Source of the DNA: Heterostelium album PN500
Taxonomy: Eukaryota > Evosea > Eumycetozoa > Acytosteliales > Acytosteliaceae
Assembly: GCF_000004825.1 (NCBI RefSeq)
Contig: NW_008805076.1
Span: forward strand, 186,001 to 250,000
Direction of reading: 5' to 3'
DNA length: 64,000 nt
Shown here: one piece after another, positions 7 through 9,083 of the stretch
Position numbering within the stretch: position 1 is the stretch's first letter
Layout: each line of letters begins with the position of its first letter
Position numbers and translations under genes: made by a program
The notes under the pieces: generated by a model
Databases searched by the model: none
Told to the model about the DNA's origin: nothing
The model's input: the letters and a program-made list of their open reading frames with translations, nothing else

Positions 7-155
7 AAAATCTGGAAAACCTTAATTTTAGTGGTGTATCATCTTTAACCAAAGAAACTATCAATGTCAATAATTCACAAAGTGCAGCTGCTCAACAAAG
101 TACTAACAGAACGGCTGGATTTCATTCAGAAGAGTGGACATGTGTAATAATGTAA
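7..155 (+). CDS. CaaX-box microprotein, copy 1 (5' end outside window)
   Basis: Second exon of a tiny secretion-signal-free protein. The six bases before it end in AG and match the intron end of the copy at 980. Reading from there gives about 49 residues beginning KNLENLN, with a Ser/Thr/Asn/Gln-rich middle (SLTKETINV, SAAAQQST) and ending EEWTCVIM then TAA. CVIM is a canonical CaaX prenylation box. The first exon, expected to encode Met-Leu-X, lies left of the window. Family membership is seen directly by alignment with the copies at 980, 1731, 5548 and 6509. Function is unknown. Prenylation and membrane attachment are inferred from the C-terminus only. Confidence 0.6.
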
Positions 156-360
156 TAAAAAAATAGCAATTTAATTAAAATTAAAATGTTAGAATAAAAA
201 CCAAAGTTAAACCGAACATATTAATTAAAAATAAAGAAGAGTTGTAAATTTAAGAATAATAATCAATTTTCTCTTATTATTAAGAACTTTTTTATTATGA
301 TGATTTTAACTTTTAAGAATCAAATCAAATCAAATCAAATAAAAAGGAATAATAAAAAAA

Positions 361-490
361 TGTGTTTTTTCATTTTATAGGTTGTGTTTTTATTTCCTTT
401 TTTGAATTTTATCACTATTTTGCCAACACACACACTAAAGATGTTCAAAATTTTTTGATTTTTTGGGGAGGGATAAAATGAAAATACACA
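361..490. repeat. MITE-like element A with terminal inverted repeats
   Basis: The 18-bp ends (361-378 and 473-490) are inverted copies with one mismatch, built around TTTCATTTTAT / ATAAAATGAAA. The interior is 90-odd bp, with a CACACAC tract and a TTTTGGGGAGG block just inside the right end. A second element of the same design lies at 48022-48162 and shares the ends, the TAGGTTG block and the TTTTGGGGAGG block. No ORF is carried. It could be a non-autonomous DNA transposon relic or a structured RNA gene. No clear target-site duplication is seen here. Confidence 0.6.
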
Positions 491-857
491 AATCAAATAA
501 TTGATTATATAGTATTTTTCTATACTTTTAACTTTAATTTGTTTAACCCTCAAAAAAAAAACATAAATTTAGTTCCCCCAAAAAATTGATTCACAGGTTT
601 TTGTTCATGTGTTCAAATAAAACTTACCCCAAAAATTAGAAAAAAATAACACTCTATATATTTTTCTTAATTTATTACCTGATTTGAATAATTGTGTTCC
701 TAATTTATTTGAATCATGATTGAATCTTGAATATTAAAAAAGTTAAATTGTAAAAATAGTATTCTACTATAATCATTGAGATCTCAATCACCAATTTTGC
801 CCAAAAACCTGATAATTTCAATTAAATTTTATATATAACTTTTTATTGAAACTAATT

Positions 858-882
858 TATCCTGTTTTATTTATTATAAATA
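858..882 (+). promoter_or_regulatory. Shared TATA-like promoter block of microprotein genes
   Basis: A TATCCT block followed by ATTATAAATA lies about 100 bp before the copy 2 start. The same arrangement occurs at 1623-1648, about 83 bp before copy 3, and both are followed by a TTTTGAAC motif. Conservation in otherwise drifting AT-rich DNA suggests the TATA box and start region. The assignment is inference. Confidence 0.4.
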
Positions 883-979
883 GGATGAATTTTGAACATT
901 TATTAGAATCAGATCAAATAAAAAAAGAAAATAAAGAATATAAATTCAACTAAAAGATATTATTTTAAAAACTTTTGAA

Positions 980-1229
980 ATGTTGCACAGTAAGTAGTGG
1001 AATCACTTTTACTAAAATAACTTTATTAATTAAATTTTTTTCAAAATTTAAAGAAAATCTAGAAAATCTTAATATGAACAGTGTTTCATCTTTAACCAAA
1101 GAAACAATCAAAGTTAACAGTTCACAAAGTGCTGCTACTCAACAAAGTACCAATGGTTTAACTTATAGTATGGCTGATGATTGGTGGGCATATTTGAATA
1201 AACCTCAAGGAGACTGCACAATATTGTAA
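980..1229 (+). CDS. CaaX-box microprotein, copy 2
   Basis: Spliced model join(980..989,1054..1229), 61 residues. Exon 1 is ATG-TTG-CAC-A followed by a GTAAGT donor, and the intron ends TTTAAAG. The protein starts MLHKNLENLN, continues with SVSSLTKETIKV and a Gln/Ser/Thr stretch, then a tryptophan pair and the end QGDCTIL. CTIL fits a CaaX box of the geranylgeranyl type (terminal Leu). An unspliced reading from a TTG just upstream gives 84 codons, but it translates the intron and lacks the ATG shared by the family. There is no signal peptide or transmembrane segment. The size and tiny first exon recall the hssA/2C/7E small-protein genes of D. discoideum, but the sequence differs. Function is not recognised. 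Confidence 0.65.
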
Positions 1230-1730
1230 TAATTTTAAATTACAATTTATTAAATAAAAATTTTTATTTAATCAACAAACAATAAATAAATATTTATGTT
1301 TAAATTTTAAAAATCGTAGTCTATTGACAAAATTCAATATAATTTATGATTTTTTTTTTTACAATTTCTTAAATAATCTTTTATAGGAAACATTCATTCA
1401 ACTTCTAGAGTGAAAAACCCTTCTAATTATATAAAAAACAAATTATTTTAAAGATTCTATCTTTAAATTATAAACAGATCAGAATGTTAAAATGACCTCC
1501 CTTAAAAAACTAAAAATAATTTTAAAAGAGAAGTTTATTGGATGATGAAAATAGAATCTTGAAAATAGCAAGTTTAATTTAGAATTTAATCTAGATTTAA
1601 TTTAAATTTATTGAAATCAATGTATCCTATTTTTTATGATTATAAATACATACATTTTGAACTTTTTAAAAATCATATAAAAACAATTAAAAAGAAATAT
1701 TCAAATTGATAGATATTTAAACTTTTGAAA
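1230..1730. other. Intergenic between microprotein copies 2 and 3
   Basis: AT-rich and non-coding. The right half carries the TATCCT plus TATAAATA promoter block (1623-1648) like that before copy 2. Confidence 0.5.
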
Positions 1731-1983
1731 ATGTTGCTTGGTAAGTATAACAGATTTTCTTTAAATTTTAAAAAAAATCTAATTAAAAAATTTAAAGAAA
1801 ATCTTGAAAATCTTAATTTAAATAGTTCAAAAGAAACTATCAATTTAAATAGTTCATAAGGGTCAAAGTACTAACGGAACAACTGTACTCCCAATCCAGT
1901 ATTGGACTAAAGATCAATGGGAAAAATACGGAACATTTGGTAACCAATACCTATATAGTAAAAGTTCCTGTGTAATATTATAA
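1731..1983 (+). pseudogene. CaaX-box microprotein, copy 3, disrupted
   Basis: The start (MLLENLENLNLNSSKETINLNSS), the GTAAGT donor after 1740 and the acceptor at 1797 match the other copies. An in-frame TAA then falls at 1857-1859. About seven bases further on, in another frame, the family's QSTNG motif resumes at 1864 and runs to a clean end KSSCVIL, TAA at 1981-1983. Compared with copy 2, roughly fifteen bases of the QSAATQ region are altered or missing. The retained CVIL box suggests recent decay, or a different splice I could not find. Either the truncated 23-residue peptide or nothing is made. Confidence 0.6.
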
Positions 1984-2135
1984 TATTTCATTTTAATTAA
2001 AAATTATGAAAGAATTAACTTTATTAGTATTTTTTTTGTTCAAATTAATAACAAGAATTCTAATTTTTTACAGTGGTTGGGAAACGTCTATAAAATATAT
2101 CAAAATCATTAAAGATATTATTTATTTAATTTCAT

Positions 2136-4383
2136 TTAATTGATTATTAGTTCGAATATATCATAGAGTACTGCAGATGAGAAGTAAACTAGCACAATAT
2201 AACGTAGTTTGAATATATAGTTGTGAAGAGGAAGAGGAATCGGGAAGTGAGAGTATGCCTTTCGTGAGAAATTCAGCATGAGCACTGCAAAGAGTCCAGC
2301 CTGTAGGTTGAGACCCAGAGATGCACCAGATTCAAGCATCATAAGGAATCCCTTTGGATTACAGAGTGCAACCGTTAAGATGAACCCAAATGCAAATATA
2401 TAGAATACGAATTCACGAATTGGATATTTAACATTGGTCGAACCGACATTGTCCACCGACTGTACCTCCTTTGCATCGATTTGATTGTTTACCCAGTCAA
2501 TCTTTCTCTGTATGGCATTACCAATAGTACAAAGAAATCCTGGTAATCTATTTGGTTTCGATCCATTATATCCTTGTTGTTGGTGTTGTTGGTGTTGTAT
2601 TTCTTGTTGTTGATCATCATCGACTTCAATACGATTGTTAAATGATTGTTCATCTTCCTGTTGTTGTTTCTGTTTATTTTGCAATGATTTAGATCGCCAG
2701 GAAACAGAGAATCCGTCGAGTGTCTGTTTGTAACCAGTTCCCACTGTGATGTAGCTAATGGTGATAGAGATGACAATAAAGATATCGACAGCCCACGCAA
2801 TCCAGAGATACTGCGGGTAGTAATCGTGAATCACCTTCATCAATGGGATCGTTGCAATCTGTGAATTCTTACCGGCATCGTAGAGATTCGGTGCTTTCGG
2901 ATTAGTGGCGTCAGGCATCTGTGGAATGATACGCAACAAGAACCAACACCAACAAATATTCAACAGGAACACAGTGGTCAGTGCAGAGAAAACCGTTGCA
3001 TAGCACTTGTACATCTCACGGCGTGAGAATATTATCTTTGGGAATACAACGGGAATCACACCGGACGCTCCACCAAGGGCAACCGTAGAGATCAAAAAAG
3101 ATCGACCAACATACGCCCAATCATTGGATATTTCGAGTCGAACGTGATTAGCTACGACACCAGTAATCAACACAATGGCAATTAGCAAAGTACCCTTTCC
3201 AAACGTAAAGAATGTAATGATATGCTGTAGAGAAGACGATCCAAAGATAACAATCAAAGTGAACACAACAATCGTAGGTAATATAAAATAGTTTTGTTGT
3301 TCTTCACTAACTATTAATTTACTATATGCCATGGCTGCTGCCAAACCATAACTAATCAAAATAGCAGTACTAGTAAAGAGTTGAGTTGATGTTAGTTTTT
3401 AATCGAATCTATCAAACATATCGATATTCAAATTCAAATCCAACTACTTACAAATGTAATACTACAGAAAATATAAATACTCTATGTGCTGCGGTACCAA
3501 GGAATTTCAAACCAAGATAATGAAGATTCGGAGTGACTTGAGCTACGGAACCATTGGCGGCTTGAACAGATTGTGATTGATTTAAATCTATCTTTTCGAA
3601 ATCTTGACTTTCACCAAGATGATTATCATGATGATGCATTCCCGTTAGAATTATACCTTGAGCATGCTGCTCTTCGTATTCTTCTTCCTCTGTATTGGGT
3701 TGCTCACCTAATCCACCGATATACATAGATTCTTCAGTGGATTGTGCTGCATCCTCACCAGTGTTGTTCATTGCCGATGAAGAGGATGTCGAAGATGGCG
3801 ATCGTTTACGTCTGATACTACCGCTGCTTCCGCTACTTCCAGGACTGGCAAGTGGAGAATGATCACTACCGTTACTGTTGCTGATACCGTTGCTAATACT
3901 GATACCACGAGATGTGTTCAATCCGATAATCGATGGATTTTCACCTCTGATAATGGCATAGCATCGTTGGAGTATCTCAATGACAAAGAACAGCGACAAC
4001 ACCTGCATAACATAGCACAGCGTATAAGACCCCAGAAACGGAGTGAATCCCGACTGTGACAGCTTAACGGGTAGTCCGAGAATACCCATTCCTAGGACAC
4101 TGGCAATCACAATGAAAAAGAGATAGGCAAGCACTAAGATTGGTGTTTTCTCAGAGTCATCGTCGAATAGCTCATCTCCATGTTGTGGTTGTTGTTGCTG
4201 CTGCTGTTGCTCTTGTTGTTGTTGTTTCTTTTGATGTTGATGCAGCTGCTCTTCGATATCAACACTCAGTCGCACTTGATCGTAGGTGTTGGCACCACCA
4301 GCACCACTTATATATTTATCATAATTAGTCTTTAGCCATTTAAGCATTGTTGATTTAAACTGATCTGGTTTATTGATTATCAC
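2136..4383 (-). CDS. Amino-acid transporter, AAAP/SLC32-36-38-like
   Basis: Two exons, complement(join(2136..3369,3452..4383)), 721 residues. The junction keeps frame and restores a continuous helix reading VVLHFTAILISYGLAAAMA. The first membrane segment has the GMGILGLPV-type motif typical of the amino acid/auxin permease (AAAP) superfamily. About eleven hydrophobic segments follow in two blocks. A long hydrophilic loop between the first helices (about residues 140-290) is rich in Ser, Glu and His, and a second Gln-rich loop lies near residues 530-600. An N-terminal Gln run (about 50-70) is typical dictyostelid low complexity. The likely role is proton- or sodium-coupled amino-acid movement across the plasma membrane or an endolysosomal membrane. 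Substrate cannot be read from sequence. Confidence 0.8.
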
Positions 4384-5547
4384 AATCTTTCTTTCTTTTT
4401 CTCTATCTCTATCTCTCTATTCTTTCTCTTTTACTTTTTCTTTTCGTAAGTATTTATTAAGATGAATTATAAAACTTAACATAAAATATATATAGTAATA
4501 TTATATTTAATTAAACACAATCCTTTACTTTAATAACTAATCTTCAAGAGTTGAAACAAAACTAAACTAAACTAAACTTTATCAATCCTTCGAATATTTA
4601 ATTTATTTAATAAATATAAAATAAATAAATTAAAATTATTATAATTAATAATAAAAATAAATATAATATTAATCTATATCTTTTTTTAGAGTACGTAATA
4701 TAACAGAAGCAAATTATTATTAATAATTAAATAAAAAAAGTGATATTAATTTAAAGATTGCAATTGCAGTTAAAAAATAAATTAAGATTTTTTAATTTTT
4801 TAAAAATTTATTTTAAATTTTAGTTTTTCCCAGCCCAATTATAGTAAAACGGGTGTTGTTTTTATTTTTTGTAAAAAAAAATTATTATTAATTTTAAACA
4901 TAAGTATCTTATTTATTTTCTTATCAATACTCGATTATTCTTTACAAAAGTCTTCACAATCTAAACAATAAAGTGATAAGCTTGTTCAAAAATACAAAAG
5001 GAAAAGAAAGAAAGAAAAAGAATTCTAACCAAATTATTATATAAAAACATAAAATCAAAAAAGTCGTTGATCTACACAATTTATTTTTGAAAAAAAAAAA
5101 AACAAAATCTAATTTTGGAAATCATGAATTGCATTAAATTGGTGGAATAAGTATCAAAAAAAAACAACTAAAATCACTTTAGTAAGAAATATCATCATCT
5201 CTATTTCCGTGCTGTTTAATAAATCAAAACAATCTACTATTTTAAGATGAACAATTTTTTATTAATCCCACAAAATTCTTAAAAAGGAAATAAATTTTGT
5301 AAAAATCGATGAAATTCAAATTATTCAATGGAGAGGGTTAGAATTTGGAAACTTAATACATAAAACATTGAAGAATTCTCCTTTTTGATAAAAATTAACA
5401 AATTTTAATTTGTTTGATCATGTTTACAAGTAAACAATAATAATTTCCTTCGATTGGAATTTTATTTATAGTTAAAAAAAATAGAAACTTCGGAATATAT
5501 TAATTTAATAGATTAGAGTGGAATTTAGATATATTTTGAAAAAAAAA
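4384..5547. other. Intergenic upstream of transporter and microprotein copy 4
   Basis: Very AT-rich. No exon seen. Carries a motif (5228-5247) shared with the region upstream of copy 5, and a pyrimidine tract (about 4384-4440) just upstream of the transporter start. Confidence 0.5.
5228..5247 (+). promoter_or_regulatory. Upstream motif shared by microprotein copies 4 and 5
   Basis: A 20-base block (AACAATCTACTATTTTAAGA) is repeated exactly at 6211-6230. The two lie 301 and 279 bp before the ATGs of copies 4 and 5. It may be a regulatory site or simply residual similarity from the duplication. Similarity continues patchily downstream (GAATTCTCC, TTGATAAAA). Confidence 0.35.
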
Positions 5548-5798
5548 ATGTTATATAGTATGTTATAAAAAAACAAATATAAAATAGATTTTAATTAAAT
5601 TTTAATTTTTTTTACAAATACTTTAAAGAAAATTTGGGTTTCATTAATTTTAGTTGTCAATCATCATCATCATCAATAGAATATGATTCTTCTTTCAAAT
5701 TGAATTCCAAAATCAATGGCACTCAAGGTTTTTCTAGTGAACAAGGAACCAATGGAGTAACAGCTCCTATTTCACACGGTGTCTTCAAATGGTGGTGA
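5548..5798 (+). CDS. Microprotein family, copy 4 (CaaX lost)
   Basis: join(5548..5557,5629..5798), 59 residues, with the family architecture: ATG-TTA-TAT-A, GTATGT donor, intron ending TTTAAAG. The protein starts MLYKNLGFINFSCQ, has a Ser run, then KINGTQGFSSEQGTNGVTAP, and ends FKWW. There is no CaaX box. About 20 bp past the stop, the DNA still resembles the CaaX-encoding end of copy 2 (ACAATATT), in another frame. This suggests the box was lost by frameshift. Copies 4 and 5 form a subfamily (GTQGFS.EQG.NGV.AP). Confidence 0.5.
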
Positions 5799-6025
5799 CA
5801 GCCAACCAAAATACAATATTTGAAAAGTAAAAAATACAATCAACAAGTGGAATGAATATTTAAAAAATAAATTTATGAATGAGAATAAACAGTACAAAAT
5901 TTATTATTAACATTATTGAAAAAAAGGAAAAATATAAAAAAAGATTTATATATTATGGAATGTTAAAAAGAAAAACTTTTATTTTATTGTATTGAAAAAA
6001 AAAAAATTTGTTTGTTGGGAGTAAT

Positions 6026-6181
6026 TTAATATTGACCACCGTTGTTGAAATAGTTGAGATTCATTGAGTACTCATCATTATTACCACCACCACCACCTTT
6101 ACGTTCAATATGATTGTATAAGTCGTTGTTGTTATTGTTGTAGTTTTTTTGTATATTTGTAATAAATAGAGAAATTTCAAC
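6026..6181 (-). pseudogene. Orphan 3'-terminal exon
   Basis: On the minus strand an acceptor (AAATTTAG) is followed by exactly 52 codons ending TAA. They read VEISLFITNIQ, a short Asn run, DLYNHIERK, five Gly, then NNDEYSMNLNYFNNGGQY. Composition and codon use are those of a real dictyostelid C-terminal exon. I find no upstream exon on the minus strand before the promoter of copy 5 (6200-6508). It is probably the broken-off end of a gene left by rearrangement. Product not recognised. Confidence 0.45.
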
Positions 6182-6508
6182 CTAAATTTTTTTGTGTCTT
6201 CAAAACAATAAACAATCTACTATTTTAAGAAATCAAAAATTTCTTTAAGTTGAAAAGATGAAATTCAATTTGTTCATTTGATATGAAATAGATTGAATTT
6301 GGAAACTTTATTTAGTATAACTCCAATGAATTCTCCATATTGATAAAATATATAGAAAGTTTTAAAACTTTATGTAACCTTATTTTCGAATTTGTATTAA
6401 ATTGTTTATTGGTTAAAAAAATTACTCCTGAGATATAAATATTGAGAATTCTGATCAGTTAATATATAAAAAGATAAAAGTTCAGATAGAGATTTCAAAA
6501 AGAAAAAA

Positions 6509-6753
6509 ATGTTATTTAGTATGTAGAAAAATATATTTGTATAGAGATTCTAATTAAAAATTAATATTTTTTTAAAAACTATAATTTTAAAGAACATCTT
6601 GGAAATATTAATTTTAATTGTCAATCATCTTCATCTTCATCTTCATCTTCATCCAAAATCAATGGTACACAAGGTTTTTCGGGTGAACAAGGATCCAATG
6701 GAGTAGCAGCTCCAATTAGACGTGTTATCTACAAATCGTTGTGGTGGTTCTAA
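6509..6753 (+). CDS. Microprotein family, copy 5
   Basis: join(6509..6518,6593..6753), 56 residues. Exon 1 is ATG-TTA-TTT-A with a GTATGT donor, and the acceptor is at 6592. The protein starts MLFKHLGNINFNCQ, then nine Ser, KINGTQGFSGEQGSNGVAAP, and ends KSLWWF. It is closest to copy 4. No CaaX box. Function unknown. Confidence 0.5.
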
Positions 6754-7115
6754 AAGCAACAACTTTGATGAAGTATAAAGAATTATTAAAAATATATATT
6801 TTTAATCAAGAATAAAAAAACTCTTTTGTTTTAACAGGAGAAGAAAAGGAAAAAAAAAACATAGGATTTGTATTAGAAATATTTTTGTTAGATAGTAGAA
6901 GAATTATAATCTTTTTTAAAAAAATTCTATATTTATTTTTTTATTTATTATTATTAATTTGATAAATAGGATATTTAAATTTAAAACATGAAATAAATCA
7001 CAATTTAGTTTGTAAAATCAATCTGTCTTTGTCATAAATCGAAATTTTTTTTAGATTAAATTCTGATTTTTTTTCATTTTTTTTGTTTAGTTTTAAATTT
7101 TAGTAGTACTAGAGA
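6754..7115. other. Intergenic before methyltransferase
   Basis: AT-rich with T-runs just before the next ATG. Nothing else seen. Confidence 0.5.
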
Positions 7116-7937
7116 ATGAGTGGAAATAGTAATGATCTTCCAAATGAACCGAATATGAGTCATCTGGGTTCAAAAGACTATCAGAATGTCTATGAACCAG
7201 CACAAGATTCATTTCTGTTTATTGATGCTCTAAAGAAGGATGTCGAGTATCTGAAGGGATTGCGACCACTCGTTGCCGTGGAGATTGGATCGGGCAGTGG
7301 TTTCGTCATCAGCTATCTATCGATGCTACTCAATAACGATGGTTATTTCTTGTCGACCGATATCAACCCGATCGCTGCAATGACCAGCACCCGAACAGCT
7401 ACACACAACAACGTGCGTCTCGATGTAGTGAACACCTCGTTTCTCAGTGGCATAGACCGACTGCTTGGCAATGTAGATGTACTGCTCTTCAATCCTCCCT
7501 ACGTTCCGACGCCATCCGAAGAGATCGAGCAAGGTGGTATCGCCGCATCTTGGGCAGGTGGAATAGACGGTCGTGAAGTAATAGATAAACTACTTCCACA
7601 AATAAGTGTATGTATAAACAACACTAAATTACATTACATATAACTAAACAACAATACAATACAATACATTACATACACATATATAAAAACAGAATATACT
7701 ATCAGAGAAAGGATGTTTCTATATTGTTTTGGTTGAAGAAAATAAACCAGCTGAAGTGGTGGCAATCATGAAGAAATATAATTTTAAACACAAAGTAATT
7801 AATATATATATATATTTAGAGAGAATGATGATGACGTGATATGTTATATTAATCAAATCACTACTATATTTCAGGTGGTTGGATACAGACAAGCATTTAA
7901 TGAAAAACTTTATATCGTAAAATTCTACAGAAGTTAA
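7116..7937 (+). CDS. N6AMT1/Mtq2-like HemK-family methyltransferase
   Basis: join(7116..7607,7693..7794,7875..7937), 218 residues, close to the usual length (about 214 in human N6AMT1). A class I SAM-binding motif EIGSGSG lies near residue 56. The catalytic NPPY, which binds the side chain to be methylated, is at 126-129. The YEPAQDSF N-terminus is characteristic of this family. The last two exons (ILSEKGCFYIVLVEENKP, then VGYRQAFNEKLYIVKF) match the family's C-terminal strands. By family knowledge, the enzyme with its Trm112 partner methylates the glutamine of the GGQ motif in eRF1. The first intron's GTATGT follows AGT at 7607; reading through it only gives an unrelated tail. Confidence 0.88.
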
Positions 7938-9083
7938 TTTTGGTTCGTACTTTATTTTTTTGGATCTTCACTAAGAAGTTAGTGATGATTATAATCATAA
8001 GTAAACAAAAACAACAAACAAACAATCAACACAACAACAACAACAACAAAACAACCACTCCCTTTACCTCCAATGAATGATAACACACCTAATCAGAATG
8101 CGAGTGGGTAAGTGAAAACCAACATAAATGTTATGTTATCCGATTTTTATTGGTTGCGATCGTTGTAAGACAATACAAAAATGCAAACAAGAGTGTGATT
8201 GTTGTTTACCAAAATGACTTGTTTGTGGTTCGCAACAACACACAAACAACACAAACAACACATACAAACACGATTCTCAAATGATGATTTCAGTAACAAA
8301 ACAATAAACAAACAAAGGAGAAAGAACTAAACATAAACTAAAAAAAAGAATCCCCCCCAAAAAAAAAAAAAAAATCAATTTTGGTTGTTTAATTTGGTTT
8401 TTTTTTAATTTTTTTTAAACCATTTCATTTTCTTTGTCAGTGTGTCAGACATTTAATATCATAATTATTTATTTATTTTTATGCATTCACACACCCTTTA
8501 ACTTATTTTATTATTATTCACCAAGTTTGGTGAAACATTTTCTTAATATTACTAATCATTCAATACAATACAATACACAATACAACATACTCAAAGTATT
8601 GAAAACTATTTTTTAATTATAGTTTATTCAAATTGAATCGAATTAAAGTTTATTTTAGTTTAGTTAACCTAGTAGTAGCATTAGTAGTTTCAGAATAGAG
8701 AGAGAATAGAGAAGAATAGAGAAGAATAGAGAAGATAGAAATAGTCATCATATTATATTACGTACAAATAGATCATTAATTTAATAATATAGTAGATTTA
8801 GATGTTTGATTTCAATGTAAAACAACAATAAATATTCTTGTCAAGAAAGAATTTGGTATTGGGATTGTAGATAGAAGTGGAGCGAATAAGGACGATCGAT
8901 CCAATCGAGTGTTGACTTGGAAAATTAACCTTTGTTTGGATTATAATTTTACATTTACTTTTTTTTTTAATTAAAAGGAAAATAAAAGTTTAAAAATATA
9001 ACTATACAACGATAAGATCGATCCAATCTACACAACCAGCTTACTTCATTTGCTGGACTCGCAAAAATATTTGAAAAAAAAAA
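7938..9083. other. Long leader/promoter of the histidine-kinase gene
   Basis: Non-coding, with CA- and T-rich tracts and a repeated AGAGAATAGAGAAG block (about 8695-8735). An ATG at 8073 opens 11 codons (MNDNTPNQNAS) followed by a strong GTAAGT donor at 8108. The next good acceptor (TTTGTCAG, 8440) would give a 16-codon reading frame. This may be a spliced leader exon with a small upstream ORF. No link to the kinase frame was found. Confidence 0.35.

Follow-up and report, generated by a model that had tools for sequence, protein, structure and literature searches.

The hssA/2C/7E/sigN family of Dictyostelium discoideum (PF05710, 'Coiled') comprises about 100 genes, and expression of members has been seen in prestalk and in cup cells (PMC6198379, PMC2257962). 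One report counts 96 sigN-like genes, 89 of which have a first exon of 13 nucleotides (nt) (PMC2257962); a first exon of 13 bp is likewise given for the hssA genes, whose family is put at nearly 100 members (PMC6198379). In the presence of antibodies against one sigN-like group mounds fell apart, and the authors suggested, with caveats, a role in secretion or adhesion (PMC2257962). The molecular role of the family is unsettled, and a branch on this chassis bearing a signal for membrane attachment would offer a tangible way to learn where these proteins work. Here we analyze a tandem group of small genes in Heterostelium album PN500 whose proteins end in a CaaX box (Cys-aliphatic-aliphatic-X). 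Judging from the genome sequence, we consider it reasonably probable that these are real protein-coding genes for prenylated, membrane-tethered microproteins built on a dictyostelid hssA/sigN-type chassis.

The window (the whole 64,000-nt stretch of DNA analyzed) corresponds to C15:186001-250000, and the genome searched was 32.9 Mb in 39 contigs. Members of the clade were sought by six-frame genome searches with two clade proteins, and by a pattern spanning exon 1 and its splice donor, ATGTTRNNNRGTAWGT, with the reversed pattern as a control; member counts from both searches are lower bounds. All exon and intron models, for the CaaX clade and for PF05710 loci alike, are predictions from sequence.

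The CaaX clade on contig C15

The MLHKNLENL clade was located only on C15, where six intact genes encoding proteins of 52-61 residues were found. They form two mutually inverted clusters, one on the + strand (184.7, 185.9 and 187.0 kb, plus the disrupted copy C) and one on the - strand (151.7, 152.8 and 153.7 kb, plus a relic at 150.8 kb), whose promoter, intron and leader DNA is about 65-78% identical in the longer matches. Each gene follows the same layout, in which a short phase-1 intron separates a 10-nt exon 1 (ATG-TTR-NNN plus one base) from a single short exon 2. Two relics, C15:150765 and C15:96665, both on the - strand, keep exon 1, the intron and the start of the leader and have lost the C-terminal half. 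The copies in and next to the window, with two more distant relatives (D and E), are as follows (window coordinates unless marked C15).

C15:185928-185937, outside the window, starting 73 bases to its left: copy A exon 1, ATGTTGCACA
7-155, + strand: copy A exon 2, joined to the exon 1 outside the window; 52-residue protein ending in CVIM
875-900 (C15:186875-186900), + strand: copy B promoter-like motif, TATAAA-N4-8-ATTTTGAACWTT, clade-specific
980-989, + strand: copy B exon 1, ATGTTGCACA
990-1053, + strand: copy B predicted intron, 64 nt, phase 1, GT-AG
1054-1229, + strand: copy B exon 2; 61-residue protein ending in CTIL
1641-1665 (C15:187641-187665), + strand: copy C promoter-like motif, clade-specific
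1731-1740, + strand: copy C exon 1, ATGTTGCTTG
1741-1797, + strand: copy C predicted intron, of 57 nt if the conventional acceptor is used, or of 112 nt (ending at 1852) if a later AG is
1798-1983, + strand: copy C exon 2, disrupted by an in-frame TAA (1857-1859) and a frameshift; CVIL closes the last frame
5548-5557, + strand: copy D exon 1, ATGTTATATA
5558-5628, + strand: copy D predicted intron, 71 nt
5629-5798, + strand: copy D exon 2; 59-residue protein ending in KWW, without a CaaX box
6509-6518, + strand: copy E exon 1, ATGTTATTTA
6519-6592, + strand: copy E predicted intron, 74 nt
6593-6753, + strand: copy E exon 2; 56-residue protein ending in LWWF, without a CaaX box

A sequence-only reading of this locus had described five relatives within 7 kb with a first exon of ATG-TTR-NNN plus one base and, in the four copies whose start is visible, introns of 57-74 nt. 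Our models agree on every one of these points, with five relatives at 7-6753, 10-nt predicted first exons, and introns of 64 (B), 57 (C), 71 (D) and 74 (E) nt. That reading also gave three of the copies CVIM, CTIL and CVIL ends. The first two close the intact copies A and B, whereas CVIL in copy C lies behind the stop and frameshift, in a frame continuous with exon 1 only if the later AG (112-nt intron) is used. Copy C is therefore probably a pseudogene, or else a gene that splicing at 1853 would turn into a short variant. With C disrupted and D and E devoid of a CaaX box, the five copies do not form a single CaaX set. The observation as originally made is thus partly confirmed.

The CaaX ends themselves are real, and they extend beyond the window. 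In all six intact clade genes the exact C-terminus reads C-[VTSQ]-I-[ML], with a1 being V, T, S or Q, a2 always Ile, and X either Met or Leu, and the box contains synonymous codon changes (TGT/TGC, ATA/ATT, TTG/TTA). Counting members and scoring their ends, as had been proposed, gives 6/6 within the clade but 0/4 among its nearest relatives, a pair on C10 together with window copies D and E. As a group, the leaders of these four resemble those of the clade with an expectation value (E) of 6e-7, even when residues 1-4 are left out.

The leader of about 37 residues is, by its substitution pattern, constrained at the protein level. Over its first 37 codons the pooled ratio of non-synonymous to synonymous differences per site (pN/pS) was 0.23, and three disjoint pairs accumulated 21.5 synonymous and 19.5 non-synonymous leader differences (P = 8.5e-6, simple binomial on site numbers). 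We infer that the leader is a functional part of the protein. The tail, meaning the next 11-20 residues, aligned poorly as protein between paralogues (z between -0.4 and 2.8 for all but one of 15 pairs, the exception being the twin pair A / C15:153703), and yet the last four residues were retained. When conservation was expressed as a shuffle-corrected alignment score per base, averaged over the 14 non-twin pairs and with the leader taken as 33 codons, the leader scored 0.61, the promoter 0.33, the intron 0.24, the 3' untranslated region (3'UTR) 0.10 and the tail 0.07. Tails therefore evolve at about the rate of the 3'UTR between paralogues. Weak similarity of tail DNA persists in two of 15 pairs when copy C is included (z of 3.3 for C15:152847/151743 and 5.0 for copy C/151743). 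Given this similarity and the 3'UTR-like divergence, which does not demonstrate positive selection, we make no claim of diversifying selection on the tails.

Upstream of the clade genes, about 90-130 bases from the ATG, lies the promoter-like motif TATAAA-N4-8-ATTTTGAACWTT, which matched the genome 7 times as compared to 0 for the reversed control. All sites belong to this clade: one precedes copy C, one the 150.8-kb relic and each of the other five an intact gene. The remaining intact gene, at 184.7 kb, and the 96.7-kb relic carry what we judged by eye to be diverged versions.

The six proteins are short and of low complexity. A Pfam scan of these proteins and of D and E returned nothing above cut-off, and a simple hydropathy scan of the CaaX proteins found no signal-peptide-like or membrane-spanning stretch, in keeping with the earlier statement that they lack signal peptides and other domains. 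Weak Pfam matches of copy B (best E 0.009, below cut-off) were set aside as chance.

The tiny first exon and the PF05710 loci

The exon-1/donor pattern occurs more often than chance would give, with 72 genome matches versus 35 for the reversed control. Of 71 distinct matches, 49 splice to proteins of 48-88 residues with a family-like start, as compared to a family-like splice at only one of the 125 ATGTTR sites in the window that lack this donor. Of the 49 models one, L051, seems on inspection by eye to be a piece of an unrelated gene. Cys at position -4 occurs in six of the 49 family-like proteins, all six in the CaaX clade.

A PF05710 genome search, which is independent of the exon-1 pattern, yielded 12 loci with a predicted first exon of either 10 nt (4 loci) or 13 nt (8 loci); at one of them, C7:1400534, exon size was judged from the position of the exon-1 pattern alone. 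The view that the tiny first exon defines a new class of architecture is not supported, since the layout is described in earlier reports (PMC2257962, PMC6198379) and is predicted at 12/12 PF05710 loci here. What appears to be new is the CaaX ending on a known gene layout, and in the literature, so far as the sources were accessible, we found no report of a CaaX or prenylated small-protein family in dictyostelids, and searches on hssA in P. pallidum likewise brought up none.

Proposed prenylated microproteins and competing explanations

The favored reading can be laid out as follows. A TATA promoter would drive a gene in which a single short phase-1 intron parts a first coding exon of 10 nt from a short second one. 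Splicing, as predicted, would join the two into a frame encoding the conserved leader, a tail varying from one paralogue to the next and, at the C-terminus, a CaaX box. The proteins would be made in the cytosol and then modified by a CaaX prenyltransferase. Boxes with X = Met receive mainly farnesyl and those with X = Leu mainly geranylgeranyl. Trimming by Rce1 and methylation by Icmt would follow and leave a membrane tether, with the leader possibly serving as the interaction part and the tail conferring paralogue specificity; developmental induction, as for hssA/sigN, would be a guess from the known family. The genome holds PF00432 prenyltransferase stretches at three loci (on C9, C14 and C15, with the subtype not resolved) and ICMT at one locus, a family that also matches in 5/14 control genomes; enzyme families of this pathway, prenyltransferase and ICMT, therefore exist in this genome. 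In yeast, according to one study, targets of geranylgeranyltransferase I (GGTase-I) follow Cxa[L/F/I/M/V], where a is mainly branched-chain, and Ile or Val at a2 is compatible with Rce1 (PMC11304957). Prenylation of the clade proteins is likely on these grounds, and membrane tethering would follow from it. Taken as a whole, the interpretation offered by the sequence-only reading, prenylated signals or small membrane tags, is partly supported, through the CaaX ends and the lack of other domains.

Several observations weigh against this reading. The PF05710 genome search returned no locus on C15, and with matches allowed up to E 10 none of the six CaaX proteins matched PF05710, whereas one 13-nt-exon gene of this genome did so at E 2.9e-6. 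Comparison of the clade profile with the 10-nt PF05710-type members gave a probability of 71% (E 3.7e-5), a value that includes the pattern-fixed start. Since the exon-1 pattern fixes residues 1-2 and narrows residue 4, and most non-clade proteins were chosen by it, the comparison was repeated without residues 1-4: it then fell to 12.8% (E 0.0022, with 0/40 shuffles as high), and the link between the clade and the LLDA group vanished (1.6%, 4/40 shuffles as high). In the same setting PF05710-type members compared with the C10/D/E group had 2/40 shuffles as high, and with the PFW group a probability of only 0.4%. Full PF05710 membership was rejected for want of a profile match (0/6), and for that reason the case for hssA/sigN homology, made up of shared architecture and weak leader similarity, is not taken as far as membership. 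The presence of the upstream motif at clade genes is by construction, as it was derived from them, and the new point is therefore its absence elsewhere in the genome. A polybasic second signal ahead of the Cys was not found in the CaaX proteins, and three copies, C among them, are disrupted or cut short. In D. discoideum, cells lacking 13 sigN genes showed no phenotype (PMC2257962), and a frame-shifted hssA also suppressed the statA defect (PMC6198379), so that transcripts may act in the hssA family.

The last result also lends itself to another explanation, in which the CaaX ends are an inherited coincidence and the genes act via their transcripts or their leader, the C-terminus being functionless. 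The 0/4 score of D, E and the C10 pair, the 43 of 49 family-like proteins without Cys at -4, and the weak DNA similarity of some tail pairs, which means that descent is not fully erased, all fit with it. However, the tails are largely dissimilar and still C, I and M/L are held at the exact C-terminus with synonymous changes, and the leader is under apparent protein-level constraint; we therefore regard coincidence as rather unlikely. That the cluster is simply decaying, consisting mostly of pseudogenes with no current role, agrees with the stop and frameshift in copy C and with the truncated relics C15:150765 and C15:96665, but hardly with six intact members, a leader pN/pS of 0.23 and a conserved upstream motif, and seems to us very improbable.

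A conserved leader, variable tails and a fixed CaaX box in several tandem copies are also compatible with precursors of lipopeptide signals, as in fungal a-factor-type pheromones, although neutral tail drift would look similar. The leader would be removed and the short tail exported with a prenyl-cysteine methyl ester, paralogues being different ligands. The missing hydrophobic stretch is compatible with a Ste6-like export route; Trp is present in every one of the six clade tails; and in the twin pair A / C15:153703 the tail is conserved (0.82 per base) while the 3'UTR is not (-0.04). Against this, tails of paralogues diverge about as much as their 3'UTRs (0.07 versus 0.10), which drift explains equally well, and the leader is conserved beyond the need of a discarded leader. 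Export as lipopeptides is possible, but we think this account of the genes unlikely. A broader version, in which the clade would be a dictyostelid prenylated peptide signalling set, with an hssA/sigN-like leader, paralogue-specific Trp tails displayed or released as lipopeptide ligands in development or mating, and one exclusive promoter element, strikes us as quite improbable.

Other tiny-exon genes, neighbors and known systems

Beyond the CaaX clade, 18/49 family-like proteins end in PF[WY] plus three residues. A larger tiny-exon set on contig C30 (261-284 kb) and elsewhere (L072-L084, L091) has P-F-[WY]-x-V-W ends or close variants. We suggest that the chassis may carry various endings at the C-terminus (CaaX, PFWxVW, Gly/Cys-rich). 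The 13-nt-exon gene C16:108031 (L096) scores above the PF05710 cut-off (28.5 bits) and has an ALLDA-type C-terminal region with a VHL end, which resembles by eye that of a 10-nt-exon group (L037, L047 and L068; ALLD/ALLH..HL or DL); two members of that group, L037 and L068, had no PF05710 match. L096 may thus bridge the 10-nt and 13-nt exon-1 types.

Two other genes lie near the window copies.

2136-4416, - strand: apparent two-exon membrane-protein gene between the CaaX copies and D/E, whose Trp/Tyr permease match (PF03222) is borderline at E 1.1e-4, just below cut-off
7113-7940, + strand: small gene resembling methyltransferases (PF05175 at E 2e-4, just below cut-off) and containing NPPY, presumably resembling N6AMT1/HemK

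Among known small CaaX proteins, G-protein gamma subunits share small size and the CaaX end with the clade, and the Pfam matches of the six CaaX proteins, listed to E 10, include no G-gamma model. Fungal a-factor-type pheromone precursors are short, end in a CaaX box and have no hydrophobic signal peptide; compared by description only, the clade proteins share these features, but they differ in their long conserved leader and tiny-exon chassis. In D. discoideum, DDB_G0283503 and its neighbors encode prestalk small proteins of 57-59 residues that are described as not significantly similar to hssA (PMC3640940). The clade is like this group in size and small-protein class, and the neighboring gene numbers of that group suggest clustering, a comparison again made from its description only. 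Unlike hssA/2C/7E/sigN, the clade has no PF05710 match (0/6) and only a weak sequence link past the first four residues, and a CaaX box takes the place of the Gly/Cys-rich C-terminal half. With that family it shares the tiny first coding exon, one short intron and a single second exon, as well as a short product, clustered paralogues, a Ser-rich leader and a divergent C-terminal region.

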